Origin: Gemmatimonadaceae bacterium
GTDB taxonomy: Bacteria; Gemmatimonadota; Gemmatimonadetes; Gemmatimonadales; Gemmatimonadaceae
Reading direction: 5' to 3'
DNA length: 64,000 nucleotides
NCBI GenBank assembly: GCA_019752115.1
Contig: JAIEMN010000026.1
Location: forward strand, 1 to 64,000
The notes beneath the pieces are model-generated. The model was not told where the DNA came from and did not search any database. It saw only the letters and a list, made by a program, of their open reading frames with translations. Of this stretch, positions 3,801 through 55,737 are shown piece by piece; position 1 is the stretch's first letter; every line of letters begins with the position of its first letter. The position numbers were made by a program, and so were the translations under genes.

Positions 3801-3994
3801 TCGGTCTACGGACCACTATGGAAGTGGGAGTCGGGATTTTTCTCGGAGGTGCGGGTCGGAGTGCCGGGGGCCGTCCACGCGCCGGTCACGACCGTTCGAA
3901 ACCGCGGAGCGAAGCAGGTCCTCTCAGGCGGCACTCCGACCCGCACCTCCGACCACGATCCCGACTCCCACTTCCATAGTCGTCCGTAGACCGA
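3801..3994. repeat. Long imperfect inverted repeat (66-nt arms)
   Basis: Left arm 3801-3866 and right arm 3929-3994 are reverse complements over 66 nt with about six mismatches clustered near the middle; the 62-nt spacer is GC-rich. The arms begin TCGGTCTACGGA and contain GAAGTGGGAGTCGGG and GGAGGTGCGGGTCGGAGTG. The element occupies almost the whole gap between the end of the M20 peptidase gene and the start of the WYL-like gene, both on the minus strand. Transcribed, it would form a very large hairpin and may act as a terminator or mRNA stabiliser. It contains no open frame and does not resemble the other palindrome families in the window. Confidence 0.85.
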
Positions 3995-11106: not shown

Positions 11107-11485
11107 GCCGCAAGATACACAGCCGCCACGTCCGGTCGCGGGGGGCGCCGGGTGGTGTCACGGCCAGGTAACCGGCAAAGCACAAATTGCCGGACGTCTT
11201 GCCACGGTCGCGCTCGCTCACATATTTGCTGGCAGCTGGCCAGCATGATGGGGTCGTTACCTGTACGCGGTCGCCGCGTCCATAGGCTGACGGCACGATT
11301 CTCGCTGTGCCCTGCCATATCAGCCCCAACATCGTAGGCCACGGCCCCAACCCTCGCGTTGAAAACGTGGTCCTGCGAAGCCCGACGTCCCGCGCTCACG
11401 CGTAGGGGCGTCGTGGTGCATTTGGGAGAGTGGTTTGCGGGCTTTGGGGCGAACCGCAGGTGTGGGGCGCTCGAGGGGCACCGTT
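11107..11485. other. Intergenic region upstream of lpdA, no gene seen
   Basis: No convincing coding frame or RNA gene. It holds a short palindrome GCTGGCAGCTGGCCAGC near 11228-11244 and must contain the lpdA promoter, but I could not pick a hexamer pair with confidence. The remainder of the sucB-lpdA gap is occupied by the palindromic element at 11486-11566. Confidence 0.5.
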
Positions 11486-11566
11486 GGTCAGGGGCCAGGG
11501 GGAAGGACAGAGGGGGGAGTGCCACCACGGCACTCCCCCCTTGCTCCTTCCGCCTGACTTCTGACC
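11486..11566. repeat. Palindromic element, family 2 copy 2
   Basis: Left arm 11486-11523 and right arm 11529-11566 are reverse complements over 38 nt with about eight mismatches and a 5-nt loop (ACCAC). The top 12 bp (GGGGGGAGTGCC) are perfect. It ends 23 nt beyond the sucB stop codon and contains the same GTCAGG.GGAAGGA core seen in the other two family 2 elements. Probably a terminator for sucB. Confidence 0.8.
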
Positions 11567-11589
11567 TGCGATGCCAGACGAACGCTCTC

Positions 11590-12879
11590 TCAATAGACGA
11601 GCATCGCGGCGGGATCTTCCATCAGCTCCTTCACGCGGACCAGGAACAGCACGGCCTGCTGGCCGTCGATGATGCGGTGGTCGTAGCTGAGGGCGATGTA
11701 CATCATCGGGCGGATCTCCACCTTGCCCTCGATCGCCACGGGGCGATCCTGGATCTTGTGGAGGCCCAGGATGCCGACCTGGGGGTAGTTGATGATCGGC
11801 GTCGAGACGAGTGAGCCGAAGACGCCGCCGTTCGTGATCGTGAACGTGCCGCCGGTGAGGTCATCCATCGACAGCTTGCCATCGCGCGCCCGCTTGGCGA
11901 CGGCGCCGATGTCCTTGCCGATCTGCACGACGCTCTTCTGGTCGCAGTCCTTGATGTTCGGCACCACGAGCCCGGCGTCGCTGGCCACCGCGATGCCCAT
12001 GTTCACGTAGTGCTTGTAGACGATCGTCTCGCCGTCGATCTGCGCGTTCACCACCGGATACGCCTTGAGCGCGAGCGTCGCCGCTTTCGCGAAGAAGGGC
12101 ATGAACGACAGCTTGACGCCCTGTTCCTTCTCGACCCGATCCTTGAGGCGCTCGCGGAGCGCCGTGATCGCGGTCATGTCGATTTCGTTGAAGGTCGTCA
12201 GGTGCGCCGTGGCGTGCTGGGACTGCAGCAGATTCTCGGCAATCCGCTTGCGCCGGGTCGTCATCTTCTCCCGAGTCTCGCGCGGAGCGGATGGCGAGGG
12301 CGCGGAGGGAGCGGCGGCGGCTGGCGCCGCTCCTGTTTCTTTCGCGGAGGGGCTGGCTGGCGCGGCGCCCGCGGAGGCCGTGGGCGCGGACGCGGCCATC
12401 ACGTCGGCTTTGCTCACCACGCCGCCGCGGCCCGTGCCGGTCACATCGGCGGGGTTGATCCCGGACTCTGTCGCCAGGCGCGCAGCGGCGGGGGAGACCT
12501 TGGCCTCGCTCGCGGTCGGGGCCGCGACTGGCGCGGCAGCCGGCGCCGTGGCGTTCGCCGTGGCGTTCGCCGTGGCGTTCGCCGTGGCGTTCGCCGTGGC
12601 GTTCGCCGTGGCGTTCGCCGTGGCGGGCGCCGCAACGGCTGCGCCAGCGGCGCCGAGTTCACCGAGCGCTTCGCCAACGGCCACCACGTCGCCCTCGGCC
12701 TTGAGCCGCTTCACCAGCACGCCCCCTTCGAGCGCGGGCACTTCGACCGTGATCTTGTCCGTCTCGAGCTCCACGAGCGTATCACCCGTGGCGACCGTGT
12801 CGCCCTCTTTCTTGAGCCAACGGGAAACGGTGGCCTCAACGATCGATTCGCCAAGCGGCGGGACTTTGATGGACGACAT
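11590..12879 (-). CDS. sucB: 2-oxoglutarate dehydrogenase E2, dihydrolipoyl succinyltransferase
   Basis: A 429-residue E2 acyltransferase. Residues 1-80 form the lipoyl domain with Lys42 in ETDKITVEV as the lipoylation site. A linker of Ala/Thr/Asn repeats follows, then an E3-binding domain ([20 protein letters not shown]), a second Ala/Pro/Ser linker, and the catalytic domain with the active-site SYDHRIIDG near residue 400. The sequence FNEIDMTAI and the lone lipoyl domain favour the succinyl type over the pyruvate type. The ATG at 12879 ([13 protein letters not shown]) is the natural start; an upstream frame extension is spurious. The linker has expanded by a 12-bp tandem repeat. Confidence 0.93.
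12545..12625. repeat. 12-bp tandem repeat inside sucB linker
   Basis: Six perfect copies plus a partial copy of GCCGTGGCGTTC (plus-strand sequence), encoding repeated Ala-Asn-Ala-Thr on the minus strand between the lipoyl and E3-binding domains. The perfect identity indicates recent expansion or slippage. Each unit is four codons, so copy-number change keeps the frame and only alters linker length. Confidence 0.95.
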
Positions 12880-15247: not shown

Positions 15248-15259
15248 GGCCCGCCCGAA

Positions 15260-15357
15260 CCGCCGTCAACCCACGACCCACGACCTGGAACCCGAAACCC
15301 GGAACCGATCAGTTCCGGGTTTCGGGTTTTTGGTCGTGGGTAATGGGTGAACGGCGG
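15260..15357. repeat. Loopless GATC-centred palindrome, family 1 copy 1
   Basis: The core is an 82-nt inverted repeat (15268-15308 against 15309-15349) with no spacer, centred on GATC, with a handful of mismatches; a further 7-bp pairing (CCGCCGT with ACGGCGG) extends it to 15260-15357. It begins 12 nt after the channel gene and ends 86 nt before gyrA. The repeating AACCCACGACC text is shared with the copy at 55656-55737. Likely a terminator or structured repetitive element. Confidence 0.85.
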
Positions 15358-15443
15358 TGCCGGCCTATGTGAATCCGGGCAAGCTCCCGGTTAAATTTCC
15401 CCGGCTGTAGTGCATTACGTCGGACCCCCTGCCAGAGCCGTAC

Positions 15444-28613: not shown

Positions 28614-28697
28614 ACCCGTGAACCCCAAACCCAAGAACCCCAAACTCCAAACTGATCAGTTTGGAGTTTGGGGTTCTTGGGTTTGGGGTTCACGGGT
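28614..28697. repeat. Perfect 84-bp palindrome, family 1 copy 2
   Basis: Every base of the left half (28614-28655) pairs with the right half (28656-28697), with no spacer, centred on TGATCA. The text is CCCGTGAACCCCAAACCC followed by further AACCCCAAACT units. It begins at the base after the ctaF stop codon and ends 18 nt before ctaG. As RNA it would form an extreme hairpin, presumably ending or attenuating transcription of ctaCDEF; as DNA it could extrude a cruciform. Confidence 0.97.
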
Positions 28698-41084: not shown

Positions 41085-43007
41085 CTACAACTCTACCGCT
41101 GGAGCCGCCGAGCGCGAGACTGCAGAAAATTCCTGCGTGACGTTCCGTGGCGCCGTCATGGCCGCCGGATTGAGAATGGCGTCCAACTGCTCCCGGGTGA
41201 GGAGCCCACGTTCCAAAACCAGATCAAAGACGCCCCGTCCACTCGCGAGCGCCGTTCGGGCAATGTCGGTCGCTTCTTGATAGCCAATCACCGGCACCAG
41301 GGCTGTCACGATGCCGATCGAGTGCTCCACGAAGTGACGCATGCGGTCGGCGTTGGCTGTGATACCGGTCACACAGCGCTCGCGCAGCACGGCACAGGCG
41401 TTCCGAAGCATGTCGATGCTCCGGAGCAGCCGGTACGCGATAACCGGCTCGAAGGCGTTGAGCTGCAGCTGCCCCGCCTCGGCGGCCATCGTGACGGTGA
41501 CGTCCCCGCCGATGACATCGAAGCAGACCTGATTCACCACTTCGGGAATGACCGGGTTCACCTTCCCCGGCATGATCGACGAGCCGGGCTGCATCGCCGG
41601 CAGATTGATCTCGCCGAAGCCGGCGCGCGGTCCCGACGAAAGTAGTCGGAGATCGTTGCAGATCTTGGAGAGCTTGGTGGCCGTGCGCTTGAGGACGCCG
41701 GAGAGCTGCACGAACCCGCCGGTGTCGCTCGTGGCCTCGACCAGATCGGGCGCGGTCACGACCGGTACTTCGGCGATCTCCGCGAGCTTCTTGCAGGCGA
41801 GCTCAGCGTAGCCCGGCGGGGCATTGATGCCGGTCCCGATCGCGGTGGCGCCCAGATTGATCTCGCGGATGAGCCCCTGTGCTTCGGCCACCCGATCGAC
41901 ATCCTCACGGAGCGTGTGCGCAAACGCCATGAACTCCTGGCCGAGCGTCATGGGCACGGCATCCTGCATCTGCGTGCGCCCCATCTTGAGCAGCGGCGCG
42001 AACTCGGTGCCCTTCACTTCGAAGGCATCGGCAAGGCGCGCCAGCTCGCGGCGATACACGCTCAGGCTCTTGTGGAGCGCGATGCGCACGGCCGTGGGAT
42101 ACACGTCGTTGGTGCTCTGCGACAGGTTCACATGATCGTTGGGGCCGATCACGTCGTAGGTGCCGCGCGGCTGATTGAGCAGCTCGAGGGCGCGGTTCGC
42201 GATCACCTCGTTGGCGTTCATGTTGGTGGACGTGCCGGCACCGCCCTGAATGACATCCACCAGGAAATGCTCGTGATGCCGGCCGGCGCGGATTTCGCGC
42301 GCGGCGCGCACGATCACATCGGTCTTTTCGGCATCGAGGAGTCCGCATTCCTGGTTCGTCAGCGCCGCGGCTTCCTTCACGCACGCCAGCGATTCGATGA
42401 GCACCGGGAACTCGCGCAGCGGGATGCCGGTGATCGGGAAGTTCTCGAGGGCGCGCAGCGTCTGCACGCCGTAGAGCGCTTCGTAGGGGACCTCGCGGTC
42501 GCCCAGGAGGTCGTGTTCGACGCGCGTGCGATGGCCGCCGAAGCCGAGCGTGCGGCCACGCCCCACGAGCGTGGCGTCGGCGCGCTTGAGCCGGGCGGAG
42601 ATGGAGCGGGCGGCACGCCCCACGAGCACGGCATAGAGCTGCGGCGCCTCGCGCGTGATGTCATCGAGCTGCTGCTTGCTCATGAGCATCGCCACGCCGG
42701 GCATGATGGCCCGCGCGGTGGTGCCGTGCACGGTGTCGTCGAGCAGCAGCCCTTCGCCGACGGCCTCGCCGGGCCCGAGGGTCACGAGGCGCGTGGTGCG
42801 GCCATCGCCCGACTTTTCGATCGCGACGGCGCCGGTGATCAGGATGGCGAGCCGCTGCCGTTCGTCGCCTTCCACGAAGATGGTTTCGTCAACGGCGAGC
42901 GTGTGCGGGGTGACGTGGCGGGAGAGCTTCCAGAGGTGCGCGTCGGTGAGCCCATCGAGGAACGAGGTCGCGCGCAGCAGATCGGCGATTTCGGCCGGAG
43001 TGGTCAT
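41085..43007 (-). CDS. aspA: Aspartate ammonia-lyase fused to an N-terminal CRP-like domain
   Basis: A 640-residue fusion. Residues about 1-140 match a cyclic-nucleotide-binding-like fold (LDGLTDAHLWKLSRHVTPHT, VGEGLLLDDTVHGTTARAI). Residues about 165-630 are a full aspartase/fumarase-family lyase: LGDREVPYEALYGVQTLRAL, TSTNMNANEV, NDHVNLSQSTND, and the catalytic loop GSSIMPGKVNP at 475-485. The lyase should convert L-aspartate to fumarate and ammonia. In the CRP-like part the key Glu (GEG) is present, but the Arg-Ser pair that contacts the cAMP phosphate is replaced by His-Gly, so the ligand may differ. The domain is probably allosteric. The gene diverges from glycosylasparaginase, an aspartate-releasing enzyme. 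Confidence 0.93.
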   Translation of the reverse strand: MTTPAEIADLLRATSFLDGLTDAHLWKLSRHVTPHTLAVDETIFVEGDERQRLAILITGAVAIEKSGDGRTTRLVTLGPGEAVGEGLLLDDTVHGTTARAIMPGVAMLMSKQQLDDITREAPQLYAVLVGRAARSISARLKRADATLVGRGRTLGFGGHRTRVEHDLLGDREVPYEALYGVQTLRALENFPITGIPLREFPVLIESLACVKEAAALTNQECGLLDAEKTDVIVRAAREIRAGRHHEHFLVDVIQGGAGTSTNMNANEVIANRALELLNQPRGTYDVIGPNDHVNLSQSTNDVYPTAVRIALHKSLSVYRRELARLADAFEVKGTEFAPLLKMGRTQMQDAVPMTLGQEFMAFAHTLREDVDRVAEAQGLIREINLGATAIGTGINAPPGYAELACKKLAEIAEVPVVTAPDLVEATSDTGGFVQLSGVLKRTATKLSKICNDLRLLSSGPRAGFGEINLPAMQPGSSIMPGKVNPVIPEVVNQVCFDVIGGDVTVTMAAEAGQLQLNAFEPVIAYRLLRSIDMLRNACAVLRERCVTGITANADRMRHFVEHSIGIVTALVPVIGYQEATDIARTALASGRGVFDLVLERGLLTREQLDAILNPAAMTAPRNVTQEFSAVSRSAAPAVEL

Positions 43008-43095
43008 GGCGGGGAGAAACAGGTGGGAACAGCGTGTTCGGATATCTGACGGATGACGTCAGTCAGCGCCACACGGGTCTGGGTACCCGGCTGCG

Positions 43096-43166
43096 GCCAT
43101 TCGGTGCGCGGCCTTTCGATGCGGGCCAATCGGTGCGGGCCAATCCGTGCGGGCCAATCGGTGCGG
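43096..43166. repeat. 14-bp tandem array in the aspA-glycosylasparaginase divergent region
   Basis: Five consecutive units close to GCCAATCGGTGCGG (first unit 15 bp, the rest 14 bp). It sits about 90 bp upstream of aspA. It could be an array of protein-binding sites or a minisatellite. Nothing else in the window shares the unit. Confidence 0.85.
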
Positions 43167-43169
43167 GCC

Positions 43170-43285
43170 GTCGGGGCGACCGCGGCCTCCGAGCGCCAGT
43201 CTCCGGGGTTCGGCAACGCCTCGGCTTCGCCGTTGGCGTTCCGAAGCCCGGAGACCTGGCGCTCGGATTCCGCGGCCGCCCCGAC
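43170..43285. repeat. Family 3 palindrome P1 (type a)
   Basis: Arms of 51 nt (43170-43220 and 43235-43285) with a 14-nt loop TCGGCTTCGCCGTT. The tip has the family core: GTTCGGCAACGCC on one arm against GGCGTTCCGAAGCC on the other, giving one fixed mismatch and one bulge found in all four copies. The outer arms (CCGAGCGCCAG with CTGGCGCTCGG) are specific to this copy. Confidence 0.92.
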
Positions 43286-43315
43286 AGCTGGCCGGGTGGT
43301 GCGCGAGGGCGGCCC

Positions 43316-43434
43316 CGCGTGGCGGCGTGTGTCGCGGAGGCGCCGGGTGTCCCGGCTTCGGAACGCCGACGGCGCAGCCAAGGCGTTGCCGAACCCGGGA
43401 TCACCGGCGTCTCCGCGACATGCGCCGCCACGCG
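43316..43434. repeat. Family 3 palindrome P2 (type b, inverted relative to P1)
   Basis: Arms of about 52 nt (43316-43367 and 43382-43434) with a 14-nt loop GACGGCGCAGCCAA. The bulged core arm is on the right, so the element is inverted relative to P1. Outer arms GCGTGGCGGCG and CGCCGCCACGC differ from P1 but pair with each other. The remaining sequence up to the ATG at 43542 is GC-rich with no gene. Confidence 0.92.
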
Positions 43435-43541
43435 CCCGCGCAGGTGCCCGCCACGCGCGCGCACCAACGCCCACCCTCGTGCGCGCCCGCTGGCCAAACG
43501 GACGCGAGCGGCGGACATTCAGGCGTCCTCAACCCGAACCC

Positions 43542-44597
43542 ATGCCACTGTCTCGTCGCGACTTCATTGAGCGCTCTTCGGCGCTGGCCGCGGCCGGCTT
43601 CCTGCCGCGCCTCCCCGATCACCTGTTCGACCCCGCCGGCGAACCGCTGGAGCCCCCCGGTACGACCCCCGGCTTCCGGGCGCGGCCCTGCGTGGTGTCG
43701 TCGGCGAACGGCATCCGGGGAGTGAAGGTCGCCTACGACAAGATCATGGCCGGCGAGGATCCGCTCGATGCCGCGATTGCCGGCGTCAACATTCAGGAGC
43801 TCGACCCCGACGATCAATCGGTGGGGCTTGGCGGCTTCCCGAATGAAGAGGGGGTCGTGCAGCTCGATGCGTCGTGCATGCACGGGCCGACCAAGCGGGC
43901 CGGTTCGGTGGCGGCGATCGAAGACATCGCCACGCCCTCGCTCGTGGCCAAGGCGGTCATGGACTACACCGACCACGTCATGATCGTCGGCGCCGGCGCC
44001 AAGAAGTTCGCCAAGGCGATGGGCTTCAAGGAGACGAATCTCCTCACCGAAAAGACCCGCCAGGACTGGATGCGCTGGAAGGCACGGCTCAATCCGAACG
44101 ACTTCTGGCTCGACCACGACGAGGACATCAAGATCAAGTTCTCGACGGGGACGATCAACATGAACGCGGTGGACGCCAAGGGTGACCTGGGCTCGGTGAC
44201 GACGACCAGCGGCATGGCGTGGAAGATCCCGGGGCGCATCGGCGACTCGCCGATCTGCGGGGCGGGGCAGTACTGCGACAACCTCGTGGGCGCGGCGGGG
44301 AGCACGGGGCGCGGCGAGGCGAATATCAAGGCCTGCTCGTCGTTCCTGATCGTCGAGTTCATGCGCCAGGGGATGGGGCCGCAGGAGGCCTGCCTCAAGG
44401 TGCTCGAGCGCGTCGTGGCCACGACCGAGGCGCGGCTCTTGAATGCGCAGGGGCGGCCGAAGTTCGATCTCGAGTTCTACGCCATCACCAAGGACGGTCG
44501 CTTCGGCGGGGCCACCATGTTCTCGGGCGGCCGCTTCGCCGTCTGCGACTCGGCTGGCGCACGCCTCGTGGACGCGGCCTACCTGTACAAGCGGTGA
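43542..44597 (+). CDS. Tat-exported N4-(beta-N-acetylglucosaminyl)-L-asparaginase
   Basis: A 351-residue glycosylasparaginase of the Ntn-hydrolase family. It starts with a twin-arginine signal (SRRDFIERSSALAAAGF). The expected autocatalytic Thr nucleophile is T204 in STGTINMNAVDAKG, aligned with the HDTIG motif of known enzymes; the usual His-Asp before it is Thr-Gly here. Downstream TTTSGMAWKIPGRIGDSPI supplies Thr, Arg232 and Asp235 of the substrate site. The enzyme cleaves GlcNAc-asparagine, the remnant of N-glycoprotein breakdown, to aspartate and an aminosugar. It diverges from the aspartase fusion gene, which would use that aspartate, though the two may act in different compartments. 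Two pairs of palindromes bracket the gene. Confidence 0.9.
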   Translation: MPLSRRDFIERSSALAAAGFLPRLPDHLFDPAGEPLEPPGTTPGFRARPCVVSSANGIRGVKVAYDKIMAGEDPLDAAIAGVNIQELDPDDQSVGLGGFPNEEGVVQLDASCMHGPTKRAGSVAAIEDIATPSLVAKAVMDYTDHVMIVGAGAKKFAKAMGFKETNLLTEKTRQDWMRWKARLNPNDFWLDHDEDIKIKFSTGTINMNAVDAKGDLGSVTTTSGMAWKIPGRIGDSPICGAGQYCDNLVGAAGSTGRGEANIKACSSFLIVEFMRQGMGPQEACLKVLERVVATTEARLLNAQGRPKFDLEFYAITKDGRFGGATMFSGGRFAVCDSAGARLVDAAYLYKR

Positions 44598-44614
44598 CCT
44601 GAGAGGTCGTGCCG

Positions 44615-44740
44615 GGGGGGCGCCGGCCCGCGTCTCGCCCGCGCACTGGTCTCCGGGGTTGGGAAACGCCGCCGGCTGCGCCTTGGCGTTCCCAAGCCCG
44701 GAGACCCAGCGCGCAGCCGAGACACGGGCCGGCGCCCCGG
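44615..44740. repeat. Family 3 palindrome P3 (type a)
   Basis: Arms of 56 nt (44615-44670 and 44685-44740) with a 14-nt loop GCCGGCTGCGCCTT. The core matches P1 (GGTCTCCGGGGTT on the left, AAGCCCGGAGACC on the right) in the same orientation. The outer arms CGCCGGCCCG and CGGGCCGGCG are specific to this copy. It begins 17 nt after the glycosylasparaginase stop. Confidence 0.92.
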
Positions 44741-44887
44741 GCTGCGCTCGGGCGCCGCGGGACTGCGGTCGGCGACGCGCCCTTTGGGCGCTCGCCTGGG
44801 GAGCGGGGCGCGCGGCGATGGCCGACGTGCTTGAGGGTGGCCCTGCCTGCGCTGGGGTCTGAACAGCGGGTACGCGGGGGTGCCTGG

Positions 44888-45008
44888 GGGTGTGGCGACG
44901 GTGTGTCGTCCGAGCGCTGGGTGTCCGGGCTTGGGAGCGCGGCGCGCAGCGCCCGCGCTTCCCAACCCCGGATCACCAGCGTTCGGACGACACGCCGCCG
45001 CCACACCC
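44888..45008. repeat. Family 3 palindrome P4 (type b)
   Basis: Arms of 53-54 nt (44888-44940 and 44955-45008) with a 14-nt loop GGCGCGCAGCGCCC. The core (GGTGTCCGGGCTT and AACCCCGGATCACC) matches P2 in the same orientation. The outer arms GTGTCGTCCGA and TCGGACGACAC are specific to this copy. It ends 64 nt before leuS. Between P3 and P4 (44741-44887) I see only GC-rich non-coding sequence. Confidence 0.92.
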
Positions 45009-45072
45009 ACGCGCCAAACTCCAAGCCCACGCAAGCGGCAAAACGAAGGCAACGGGCGATTAAGTTAGAGGG

Positions 45073-47505
45073 ATGTCCGAGACCGAACTCCCGACTCCGT
45101 ATACGCCCGCGACCGTCGAGCCCAAGTGGCAGGCCGCGTGGGACGCCCGTGGCACCAATGCCGCCAAGCTCGATGATCCCGCGCGGCCGTTCTATGCGCT
45201 GATGATGTTCCCGTATCCGAGCGCCGAAGGGCTGCATGTCGGGAACCTCTTTGCCTTTACGGGCAGCGACATCTCCGCGCGCTACCACCGGCTCATCGGA
45301 CACGACGTCTTCCAGCCGCTCGGCTTCGACGCGTTCGGGATTCACTCGGAGAACTACGCGCTCAAGATCGGCGCGCATCCGATGGAGCTCACGCCCAAGA
45401 ACGTTGCGAACTTCACGCGACAGCTCTCGCGCGCCGGCTTCATGGTGGACTGGCGGCAGAAGGTCGACACGTCGCGCCCCGACTACTACAAGTGGACGCA
45501 GTGGGTCTTCCTGCAGCTCCACAAGCAGGGGCTCGCGTACAAGAAGGCCGCGGCGGTGAACTGGTGCCCCACCGACAAGACCGTGCTGGCCAACGAGCAG
45601 GTCGAGAACGGGCTGTGCGAGCGGTGCGGCACGGCGGTGGAGCAGCGCTTCCTCGAGCAGTGGTTCTTCCGTATCAGCGCCTACGCCGAGCGGCTGCTCA
45701 ACAATCTCGATTGGCTCGACTGGTCGGCGATCACCAAGCAGGCGCAGCGCAACTGGATTGGCCGCTCGGAAGGCGCCGAGCTGACGTTCGACATTCAGGG
45801 GCACAGCGACCGCGTCACCGTGTTCACGACGCGCGCCGATACGATCTTTGGCGCCACGTACCTGGTGCTGGCGCCCGAGCATCCGCTGGTGGCGTCGCTG
45901 ACCACGGATGCACAGCGCGATGCCGTCGCGGCGTATGTCGAGAGCACGAAGAAGCAGGATCTCGTGTCGCGAAAGAGCACGCGCGAGAAGACCGGTGTCT
46001 TTACCGGCGCCTACGCGGTGAACCCGGCGACCAAGCAGCCCATTCCGATCTGGATTGCCGACTACGTCCTCATGGAGTACGGCACCGGCGCCATCATGGC
46101 CGTGCCGGGGCACGACGAGCGCGACTTCGAGTTCGCGCAGGTGTTCCACCTGCCCATCGTACGCGTCGTGGCGGCGCCCGACCAGCAGGCCGATACGCCG
46201 CTGGGCGATGCCGCCTTTACCGATGACGAAGACGGCCGCCTGGTGAACTCCGCGCAGTTCGACGGACTCGCGGTGCAGGACGGCAAGCGCACGGTGACCG
46301 CGTGGCTCGCCGAGCAGGGGCATGGCAAGGCGGTGGTGAACTATCGCCTGCATGACTGGTGCATCTCGCGGCAGCGCTACTGGGGGCCGCCGATCCCGAT
46401 CATCTACTGCGACAGCTGCGGTGCGGTGCCGGTGCCGGAGCAGGACCTGCCGGTCGAGCTGCCGAACATCCCCGACTTCAAGCCCGACGACTCCGGCATC
46501 TCGCCGCTCGCGCGTCACGAGGAGTGGTATCGCGTGCCGTGCCCCACGTGCGGCAAGTCGGCGCGTCGCGAAACCGATGTGAGCGACACGTTCCTCGACA
46601 GCGCGTGGTACTTCCTGCGCTATCCGAGCGCGACGCGCAGTGATGTACCGTTTGATGCCGCGCGCACGAAGACATGGCTGCCGGTGAATTCGTACATCGG
46701 TGGCAATGAGCATGCGGTGCTGCATCTGCTCTACTCGCGCTTCATCACGATGGTGATGAAGGACGCGGGGCACATCGACTTCGAGGAGCCGTTCACGCGC
46801 TTCCGCGCGCATGGCATGATCATTCGCGAAGGCGCGAAGATGTCGAAGTCCAAGGGCAACGTCATCAATCCCGACCAGTACATGGAGGAGTGGGGGGCCG
46901 ACGCCTTCCGCATGTACCTCATGTTCCTCGGGCCGTACGAGGAAGGTGGTGACTTCCGCGATCAGGGGATCAGTGGCGTGCGTCGCTTCCTCGACCGCCT
47001 GTGGGCGTCGGTGCGCGATGCCACGACGGAGGGCGCGCCCGATCCCGACGTGATGCGCAAGCTGCACCGCACCATCAAGAAGGTCGGCGAAGATACGGCG
47101 AACCTGGGCTACAACACGGCCATCGCGGCCATGATGGAGTACATGAACGCCGTGCGTCGCGGTGAGCGCGTCCCACACCGCGCCGAAGTCGAGCCGCTCG
47201 TGCCCATGGTCGCGCCCTATGCGCCCCATCTGGCCGAGGAGTGCTGGGAAACGCTCGGCCACACCGCCAGTGTCTTCGACGCCGGCTGGCCGAGCTACGA
47301 TCCGGCCATGCTCGTGGACGACGAAGTGGACATTGTGGTGCAGGTGAACGGGAAGGTGCGCGGCAAGGTGCGCGCGGCCGCCGATGCCACGCAGGAGGCG
47401 GTGCTGGCGCTGGCGCTGGCCGACGCCGCGATTGCGAAGTTCGTGACAGATACGCCAAAGAAGGTCATCTTCGTCCCGAAGCGTTTGCTCAATATCGTGG
47501 TGTAA
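45073..47505 (+). CDS. leuS: Leucyl-tRNA synthetase
   Basis: An 810-residue class Ia synthetase that charges tRNA-Leu. The HIGH motif appears as HVGN at 55-58 in PSAEGLHVGNLF, and KMSKS at 589-593. The CP1 editing domain is present (VFTTRADTIFGATYLVLAPE, with the threonine-rich region). A zinc-type cysteine cluster is in NGLCERCGT, and a second pair in CDSCGAVP. The C-terminal anticodon-binding and end domains are complete (DIVVQVNGKVRGKV). The length is slightly shorter than the E. coli enzyme but normal. No T-box-like leader is apparent; the upstream region is filled by palindrome P4. Confidence 0.98.
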   Translation: MSETELPTPYTPATVEPKWQAAWDARGTNAAKLDDPARPFYALMMFPYPSAEGLHVGNLFAFTGSDISARYHRLIGHDVFQPLGFDAFGIHSENYALKIGAHPMELTPKNVANFTRQLSRAGFMVDWRQKVDTSRPDYYKWTQWVFLQLHKQGLAYKKAAAVNWCPTDKTVLANEQVENGLCERCGTAVEQRFLEQWFFRISAYAERLLNNLDWLDWSAITKQAQRNWIGRSEGAELTFDIQGHSDRVTVFTTRADTIFGATYLVLAPEHPLVASLTTDAQRDAVAAYVESTKKQDLVSRKSTREKTGVFTGAYAVNPATKQPIPIWIADYVLMEYGTGAIMAVPGHDERDFEFAQVFHLPIVRVVAAPDQQADTPLGDAAFTDDEDGRLVNSAQFDGLAVQDGKRTVTAWLAEQGHGKAVVNYRLHDWCISRQRYWGPPIPIIYCDSCGAVPVPEQDLPVELPNIPDFKPDDSGISPLARHEEWYRVPCPTCGKSARRETDVSDTFLDSAWYFLRYPSATRSDVPFDAARTKTWLPVNSYIGGNEHAVLHLLYSRFITMVMKDAGHIDFEEPFTRFRAHGMIIREGAKMSKSKGNVINPDQYMEEWGADAFRMYLMFLGPYEEGGDFRDQGISGVRRFLDRLWASVRDATTEGAPDPDVMRKLHRTIKKVGEDTANLGYNTAIAAMMEYMNAVRRGERVPHRAEVEPLVPMVAPYAPHLAEECWETLGHTASVFDAGWPSYDPAMLVDDEVDIVVQVNGKVRGKVRAAADATQEAVLALALADAAIAKFVTDTPKKVIFVPKRLLNIVV

Positions 47506-50799: not shown

Positions 50800-50922
50800 G
50801 TGAGGAACCCCTCAGGGGTCAGGGGGGAGGGATACAGGGGGGAGGCATCAGGACTGCCGTGGGGGCAGTCCTGATGCCTTCCCCCTGATGTTCTTCCGCC
50901 TGACGCCTGAGGGGTTGCTCAC
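50800..50922. repeat. Palindromic element, family 2 copy 3
   Basis: Arms of 59 nt (50800-50858 and 50864-50922) with loop GTGGG and about eight mismatches. The stem tip GGCATCAGGACTGCC pairs perfectly. It carries the family core AACCCCTCAGG and TCAGGGGGAAG; the right arm closely matches the element at 9555-9666. A short hairpin GACCTC-TTG-GAGGTC lies just before it at 50774-50788. The rest of the 330-nt gap up to 51081 has no gene; a TACAAT at 50980-50985 could be a -10 for the efflux operon but no -35 is clear. Confidence 0.9.
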
Positions 50923-55655: not shown

Positions 55656-55737
55656 AACCCAAAACCCACGACCAAAAGCCCGAAACCCTGAACTGATCAG
55701 TTCAGGGTTTCGCGTTCTTGGTCGTGGGTCGTGGGTT
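55656..55737. repeat. Loopless TGATCA-centred palindrome, family 1 copy 3
   Basis: Two 41-nt halves (55656-55696 and 55697-55737) pair with about five mismatches and no spacer, centred on ACTGATCAGT. It fills the gap between the convergent efflux and response-regulator genes, beginning 7 nt after one stop and ending 2 nt before the other, so it probably terminates transcription in both directions. ACCCACGACC text is shared with the copy at 15260. Confidence 0.93.

Follow-up and report, generated by a model that had tools for sequence, protein, structure and literature searches.

The window examined here, a stretch of 64,000 nucleotides, corresponds to contig C26 in the 5.17-Mb draft genome (97% complete) of a Gemmatimonadaceae bacterium, and it carries four long palindromes, P1 to P4, that stand as two facing pairs on either side of an asparaginase gene (Table 1). 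They belong to a family of twenty hairpins (family 3) dispersed over the genome, mostly in facing pairs. On balance, a facing pair together with its spacer seems to represent a single copy of a REPIN-like DNA element that is small and non-autonomous and would have been dispersed by transposition. No description of these elements was found in the open-access literature.

The Four Palindromes of the Window

A preliminary description of this DNA had reported four palindromes in the order a-b, gene, a-b, and both the palindromes and their order hold up. Folded individually, P1 to P4 reach -108.6, -109.6, -109.2 and -113.2 kcal/mol, respectively, relative to means of -58 to -69 kcal/mol for shuffled sequences (z from -10.2 to -13.7; none of 200 shuffles as stable), and the strand bearing the characteristic G.G mismatch is the plus strand in P1 and P3 and the minus strand in P2 and P4. 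Within the window, the conserved core is confined to these four, as two further matches with three mismatches are at chance level. Every hairpin had also been given a 14-nt loop, which must be revised on two counts: the tip is not open, since it folds into a short helix closed by a 3-nt loop, and it is not constant, that of P4 being 2 nt shorter. The long tip is a sub-type marker common to P1–P4; a shorter tip is found in other family members outside the window. Given this common tip, one of the two pairs, which lie 1.2 kb apart, may perhaps have been derived from the other by a local hop.

Table 1. Family members in the genome and the features of the window (position in nt; for pairs outside the window, the two covariance-model matches).
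Feature	Contig	Position	Strand or order	Remarks
P1	C26	43167–43288	+	Pair C26a, first hairpin; plus strand has the G.G mismatch; model match 43177–43279 +, E 9e-17
Conserved core of P1	C26	43203–43251	+	CCGGG-G.G mismatch-TTCGG-bulge-tip-CCGAA-G-CCCGG
P2	C26	43316–43434	-	Facing second hairpin of pair C26a; model match 43323–43426 -, E 4e-17
Facing pair C26a (P1/P2)	C26	43167–43434	(+,-)	P1, 27-nt spacer, P2; divergent gap between lyase and asparaginase genes; covariance model 43177/43323
Isoaspartyl peptidase / asparaginase-2 family gene	C26	43542–44597	+	PF01112, E 2e-60; outside the element
P3	C26	44615–44740	+	Pair C26b, first hairpin; 18 nt past the asparaginase stop codon; model match 44627–44729 +, E 1e-16
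P4	C26	44888–45008	-	Facing second hairpin of pair C26b, 65 nt upstream of leuS; model match 44897–44998 -, E 2e-17
Facing pair C26b (P3/P4)	C26	44615–45008	(+,-)	P3, 147-nt spacer, P4; tandem gap asparaginase-leuS; covariance model 44627/44897
Facing pair	C15	34702/34982	(+,-)	Covariance model
Facing pair	C38	15495/15707	(+,-)	Covariance model
Facing pair	C19	218466/218824	(+,-)	Covariance model
Facing pair	C19	249756/249932	(+,-)	Covariance model
Facing pair	C69	90/425	(+,-)	Covariance model
Facing pair	C7	79101/79417	(+,-)	Covariance model
Facing pair	C76	12055/12587	(+,-)	Covariance model
Single member	C63	5878		Covariance model
Single member	C2	152068		Covariance model

A Family of Twenty

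As the preliminary description had proposed, a covariance model (R1) was built and run against the genome; it was derived from 13 copies (alignment A3) that followed from a pattern search, and with it the core was seen to recur in 20 members (E from 1e-20 to 3e-13). Eighteen of these form nine facing pairs and two are single, giving 11 sites in all. Every one of the nine pairs has the order (+,-), for which the chance probability, with four possible orders, is 0.25^9 = 4e-6. The two tips of a pair resemble each other far more closely than tips from different pairs do (0.905 and 0.698, respectively; permutation p 5e-5), which shows that the inverted pair descends as a unit; the outer arms show the same tendency weakly (0.612 within vs. 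0.531 between; p 7e-4). The motif TTTGGTGCG, allowing at most one mismatch, stands at 8 of 20 outer feet and at none of the 20 inner feet, against a background of 0.4% (binomial 5e-15). Directly before P1, at 43110–43165, there are three tandem 14-nt units (GGTGCGGGCCAATC) containing the GGTGCG part of this outer-foot motif.

The spacers are in part related between sites, with 39 nt at 85% identity shared by pairs on C19 and C76, and 27 nt at 89% shared by those on C38 and C69. A small HTH_37 gene (XRE-like, antitoxin-like) lies in the spacer of the longest pair (C76, about 12150–12580) and is the only gene identified inside any pair; the remaining spacers, at 43–267 nt between model matches, leave room for no more than a small gene.

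Outside this genome, the same model found no family member in the 40 closest relatives (24 of the same genus, 16 of the same order). None was found in 394 other Gemmatimonadota genomes either (395 searched, 138 genera), where the best 10 candidates per genome were scored under stricter filters, such that single degenerate copies could be missed. Plasmid and phage records held no family match, and a scan of IMG/VR with the core gave 19 short matches, all scoring at chance with the model. The family thus appears to be limited to this bacterium's lineage.

Hairpin Structure and Covariation

The hairpins are 100–126 nt long, with about 43–52 pairs in the cleanly bounded copies. From the tip outwards, a short tip helix is followed by a one-base bulge in the 5' arm (A or C), five base pairs of the form TTSGG/CCSAA, and the G.G mismatch, beyond which lie a helix of about 8 bp of the TCTCCSGG type, in most copies a 3'-arm bulge, and finally the extended outer stem. 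The conserved core sits at the tip, and the hairpin feet are G/C runs. The mismatched opposition is kept in all 20 copies, as G.G in 19 and as T.G in one; the mismatch and bulge first noted in the arms of P1–P4 recur throughout the family.

The suggestion that the outer arms are constrained by structure is likewise borne out. In alignment A3, 24 of 35 stem pairs have changed on both sides with pairing kept, one-sided changes occupy only a few cells, and the 87 double-change cells exceed every one of 500 shuffles, for which the figure is 34.7; the covariation score of 0.449 drops to about 0.1 or less when the partner is slid by one to three columns. G.U pairs account for just 9 of 522 (~1.7%) in 11 cleanly bounded hairpins. 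An RNA helix evolving under selection usually goes through G.U intermediates, and the near-absence of such pairs, combined with covariation, therefore argues for pairing at the level of DNA rather than RNA. This speaks for Watson-Crick pairing either in a folded DNA that is read or through template switching that copies one arm to the other. Template switching alone should repair the mismatch and the bulge, yet both survive in every copy, which suggests that these irregularities are recognized by some factor. More broadly, a near-absence of G.U intermediates is an easy and widely applicable way to distinguish hairpins maintained at the level of DNA from those under RNA selection.

The Asparaginase Gene as a Resident

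With its symmetric a-b, gene, a-b layout, the window had been read as a cassette with the enzyme as cargo, an interpretation that is now hardly credible. The gene order lyase(-)/asparaginase(+)/leuS(+), in which the lyase is cNMP-binding/fumarase-like, is conserved without these elements across the 29 other genus genomes searched (genes matched in order, on one contig where the assembly allowed), and the cassette is refuted by this synteny. The gaps beside the asparaginase gene are short in several genus relatives, measuring, for example, 97 and 58 nt in relative G044 vs. 514 and 490 nt here; the short gap before leuS in G044 has no palindrome, and family-3 elements are absent from the locus in all relatives. 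Since gene order is conserved and the gaps are short in several relatives, each side of the resident gene carries its own inserted pair. Other pairs adjoin unrelated genes, namely queA-tgt, aroB-sigma factor, gcvP-gcvH, lon, and priA (a rough gene caller miscalled some genes, such as queA, and the key neighbors were verified by HMM). The asparaginase gene is, to judge from synteny, an ordinary old resident.

Empty Sites and Palindromes Across the Genus

A search for empty sites, also proposed at the outset, was successful at two loci. The queA-tgt gap measures 27–92 nt and lacks a palindrome in 11 relatives vs. ~620 nt with the pair here, and the gcvP-gcvH gap measures 86–98 nt in six relatives vs. 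~440 nt here. These short gaps are the empty sites expected for an inserted element.

In several other relatives, the same gaps hold different giant palindromes of unrelated sequence, up to about 500–600 nt, such as one of 512 nt at the asparaginase-leuS gap (G016) and one of 490 nt at queA-tgt (G001). Near-perfect palindromes of about 450–510 nt stand in these two gaps in relatives (L048, L143, L149, L150, and L152); several of them are built of ~20-nt repeated words, and different lineages have unrelated ones at any given gap. One homologous set of eight such palindromes has 11 of 51 pairs covarying, with G.U intermediates. In 320 kb of the present genome, inverted repeats with arms of at least 18 nt number 29 vs. 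5 in a mirror control, and most are intergenic. Their bias to gene 3' ends is not consistent, with 7 convergent, 12 tandem, and 3 divergent gaps here and 3, 14, and 4, respectively, in relatives. Family 3 is thus one instance of a wider palindrome habit in the genus, and the orthologous gaps of ~30 sequenced Gemmatimonas species, either empty or filled by different giant palindromes, provide a natural series for the origin and persistence of palindromes.

Further structures were observed along the way. A second palindrome family, found in the window at 15259–15358, 28614–28697, and 55656–55737 and also at L209 (C69:18830–18909), has AAACCC-like words, a TGATCA-type tip, and arms of 27–41 nt that are up to 100% paired, and is intergenic. 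A third, G-rich type (CAGGGGGGAG words) lies in the window at about 11478–11580 and 50801–50920 and resembles the asparaginase-leuS gap palindromes of several other genus genomes. Another inverted repeat of the window, at 3801–3994, whose 37-nt arms (97%) are separated by 120 nt, lies between two genes and does not belong to family 3. Finally, the queA-tgt gap of relative G042 (L155), the site of a family-3 pair in this genome, holds two tandem direct copies of a ~250-nt structured element.

A Proposed Mobile Element Read as Folded DNA

The favored reading, a REPIN-like mobile element, can be stated as a sequence of steps. In single-stranded DNA, such as the lagging-strand template, each end of the element would fold into its 100–126 nt hairpin, and a protein would read one strand of it through the conserved G.G mismatch, two bulges, one close to the tip and the other on the 3' side, and the motif just outside the foot. 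The pair would then be moved or copied into intergenic gaps, and the window would hold two such insertions, P1-P2 and P3-P4, flanking a resident gene. The mobilizer is presumably an enzyme that is encoded by the host and distinct from the Y1/REP transposases. The suggested check for TnpA_REP came out negative, with no match to PF01797 or NF047646 in the genome while the controls were positive, although in an assembly that is 97% complete such a gene could be missing.

The lack of a Y1/REP transposase gene, or of any other candidate mobilizer, counts against mobility, as does that of a target-site duplication or exact junction. No duplication is visible in the flanks read, where the element ends are not exactly defined, and exact junctions are not definable because the nearest relatives are only ~84% identical and their intergenic DNA is not alignable. 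The strong divergence of the arms is also at odds with a recent burst, yet no relative carries the family, and the unrelated palindromes that fill gaps in the genus mean that a general palindrome-forming process could operate. If the elements do move, they would form a REPIN-like system that lacks a REP transposase, and the large hairpins folded from single strands must be recognized by some different enzyme; with 20 naturally occurring variants, a constant mismatch and bulge, and a foot motif, the family is a defined substrate for finding it. It is possible, though we put it forward only tentatively, that the elements represent a new class of mobile DNA without a known transposase, comprising facing 100–126 nt hairpins read as folded single strands via fixed unpaired bases and with arms evolving by coupled Watson-Crick change, and that Gemmatimonas gaps acquire unrelated giant palindromes species after species.

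Alternative Explanations

Mutational upkeep could account for much of the hairpin arms. Template switching, which has been proposed to create and homogenize hairpin arms (PMC8794818), would copy arm to arm in gaps that tolerate palindromes, so that arms drift yet stay complementary; the many double-change cells, the scarcity of one-sided changes and G.U intermediates, and the unrelated near-perfect palindromes in the same gaps of relatives all agree with it. As a full explanation it is nonetheless rather unlikely, for it should erase the very mismatch and bulge that are kept, and it accounts neither for a single core shared by 11 distant sites nor for the uniform (+,-) order or the outer motif. 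Template switching could well operate on the arms alongside REPIN-like mobility.

Two readings place the function in RNA. A facing pair might be a bidirectional 3'-end device that stops transcription or protects mRNA ends from either side, as transcripts entering from left or right meet an identical strand in the facing order, a stop codon stands within ~45 nt of the start of at least 7 of the 11 sites, three sites have convergent genes around them, and bacterial intergenic stem-loops concentrate at gene 3' ends (PMC1590033). That proximity to stop codons is also expected for insertion into gaps of 40–100 nt, however, and pair C26a is flanked by gene starts on both sides, T tracts are absent (zero terminator-like sites in 42900–45200), palindromes show no consistent bias to gene 3' ends, G.U pairs are rare, and the family is missing at the same genes in all relatives, several of which have no hairpin there at all; we consider such a device improbable. 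A structured non-coding RNA family, which the preliminary description had raised as an alternative, would fit the strong covariation and the conserved bulge and mismatch, but the near-absence of G.U in the covarying stems and the inverted pairing of the hairpins, along with the lack of any Rfam match in the window, make it very improbable indeed.

Comparison with Known Systems

A relation to IS200/IS605 ends was set aside because no Y1 HUH transposase TnpA was found in the genome. Integron attC sites are likewise long, sequence-variable hairpins that are read strand-specifically through unpaired bases; unlike them, the present hairpins have their conserved part at the tip rather than the base and carry no R'' (RYYYAAC) or R' (GTTRRRY) boxes at their feet. 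The genome does encode an integron integrase (C69:33383–34327; TIGR02249, E 3e-113), and no recognizable attC array was found on that contig with the attC consensus. As intI, which passes its own family cut-off in 18 of the 30 genus genomes, is common to relatives without the hairpin family, attC was rejected as well. Like MITEs and foldback elements, the pairs have inverted terminal structures, a short spacer, and no transposase gene inside, whereas each terminus here is a near-perfect palindrome with fixed irregularities, and no target-site duplication is seen at the inexactly defined ends. CGTC-tagged REPs and TIRtrons (PMC3733652) are palindromic repeats in which facing dimers predominate and whose CGTC type is without an identified dedicated transposase; the CGTC REPs have stems of only 8–9 bp, and the present family does not carry CGTC as a regular tag.

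The closest comparison is with REPINs and the REP doublets mobilized by RAYT. In REPINs, the facing doublet is the replicating unit and singlets are remnants (PMC3116915), and E. coli TnpA_REP needs the conserved REP bulge and acts on one strand only (PMC8266576). The family is not a REPIN by membership: its hairpins, with ~43–52 pairs, are at least some three times as long as the 20–40 nt of a REP, the outer flank has GTAG in 1 of 20 copies and CGTC in 6 of 20 in place of a GTAG tag, the foot motif being TTTGGTGCG, no RAYT gene was found in the genome, and the arms of the 20 copies are almost unrelated between sites. The REPIN-like part of the preliminary description largely survives: it holds for the repeated family, the inverted doublets, and the constraint on pairing, and fails for hairpin length, the GTAG tag, and the REP transposase gene. 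What the two systems share are inverted hairpin doublets as the unit of descent, occasional singlets, a conserved strand-specific mismatch or bulge in the stem, a motif at the 5' foot, intergenic location, and compensatory changes in the arms.
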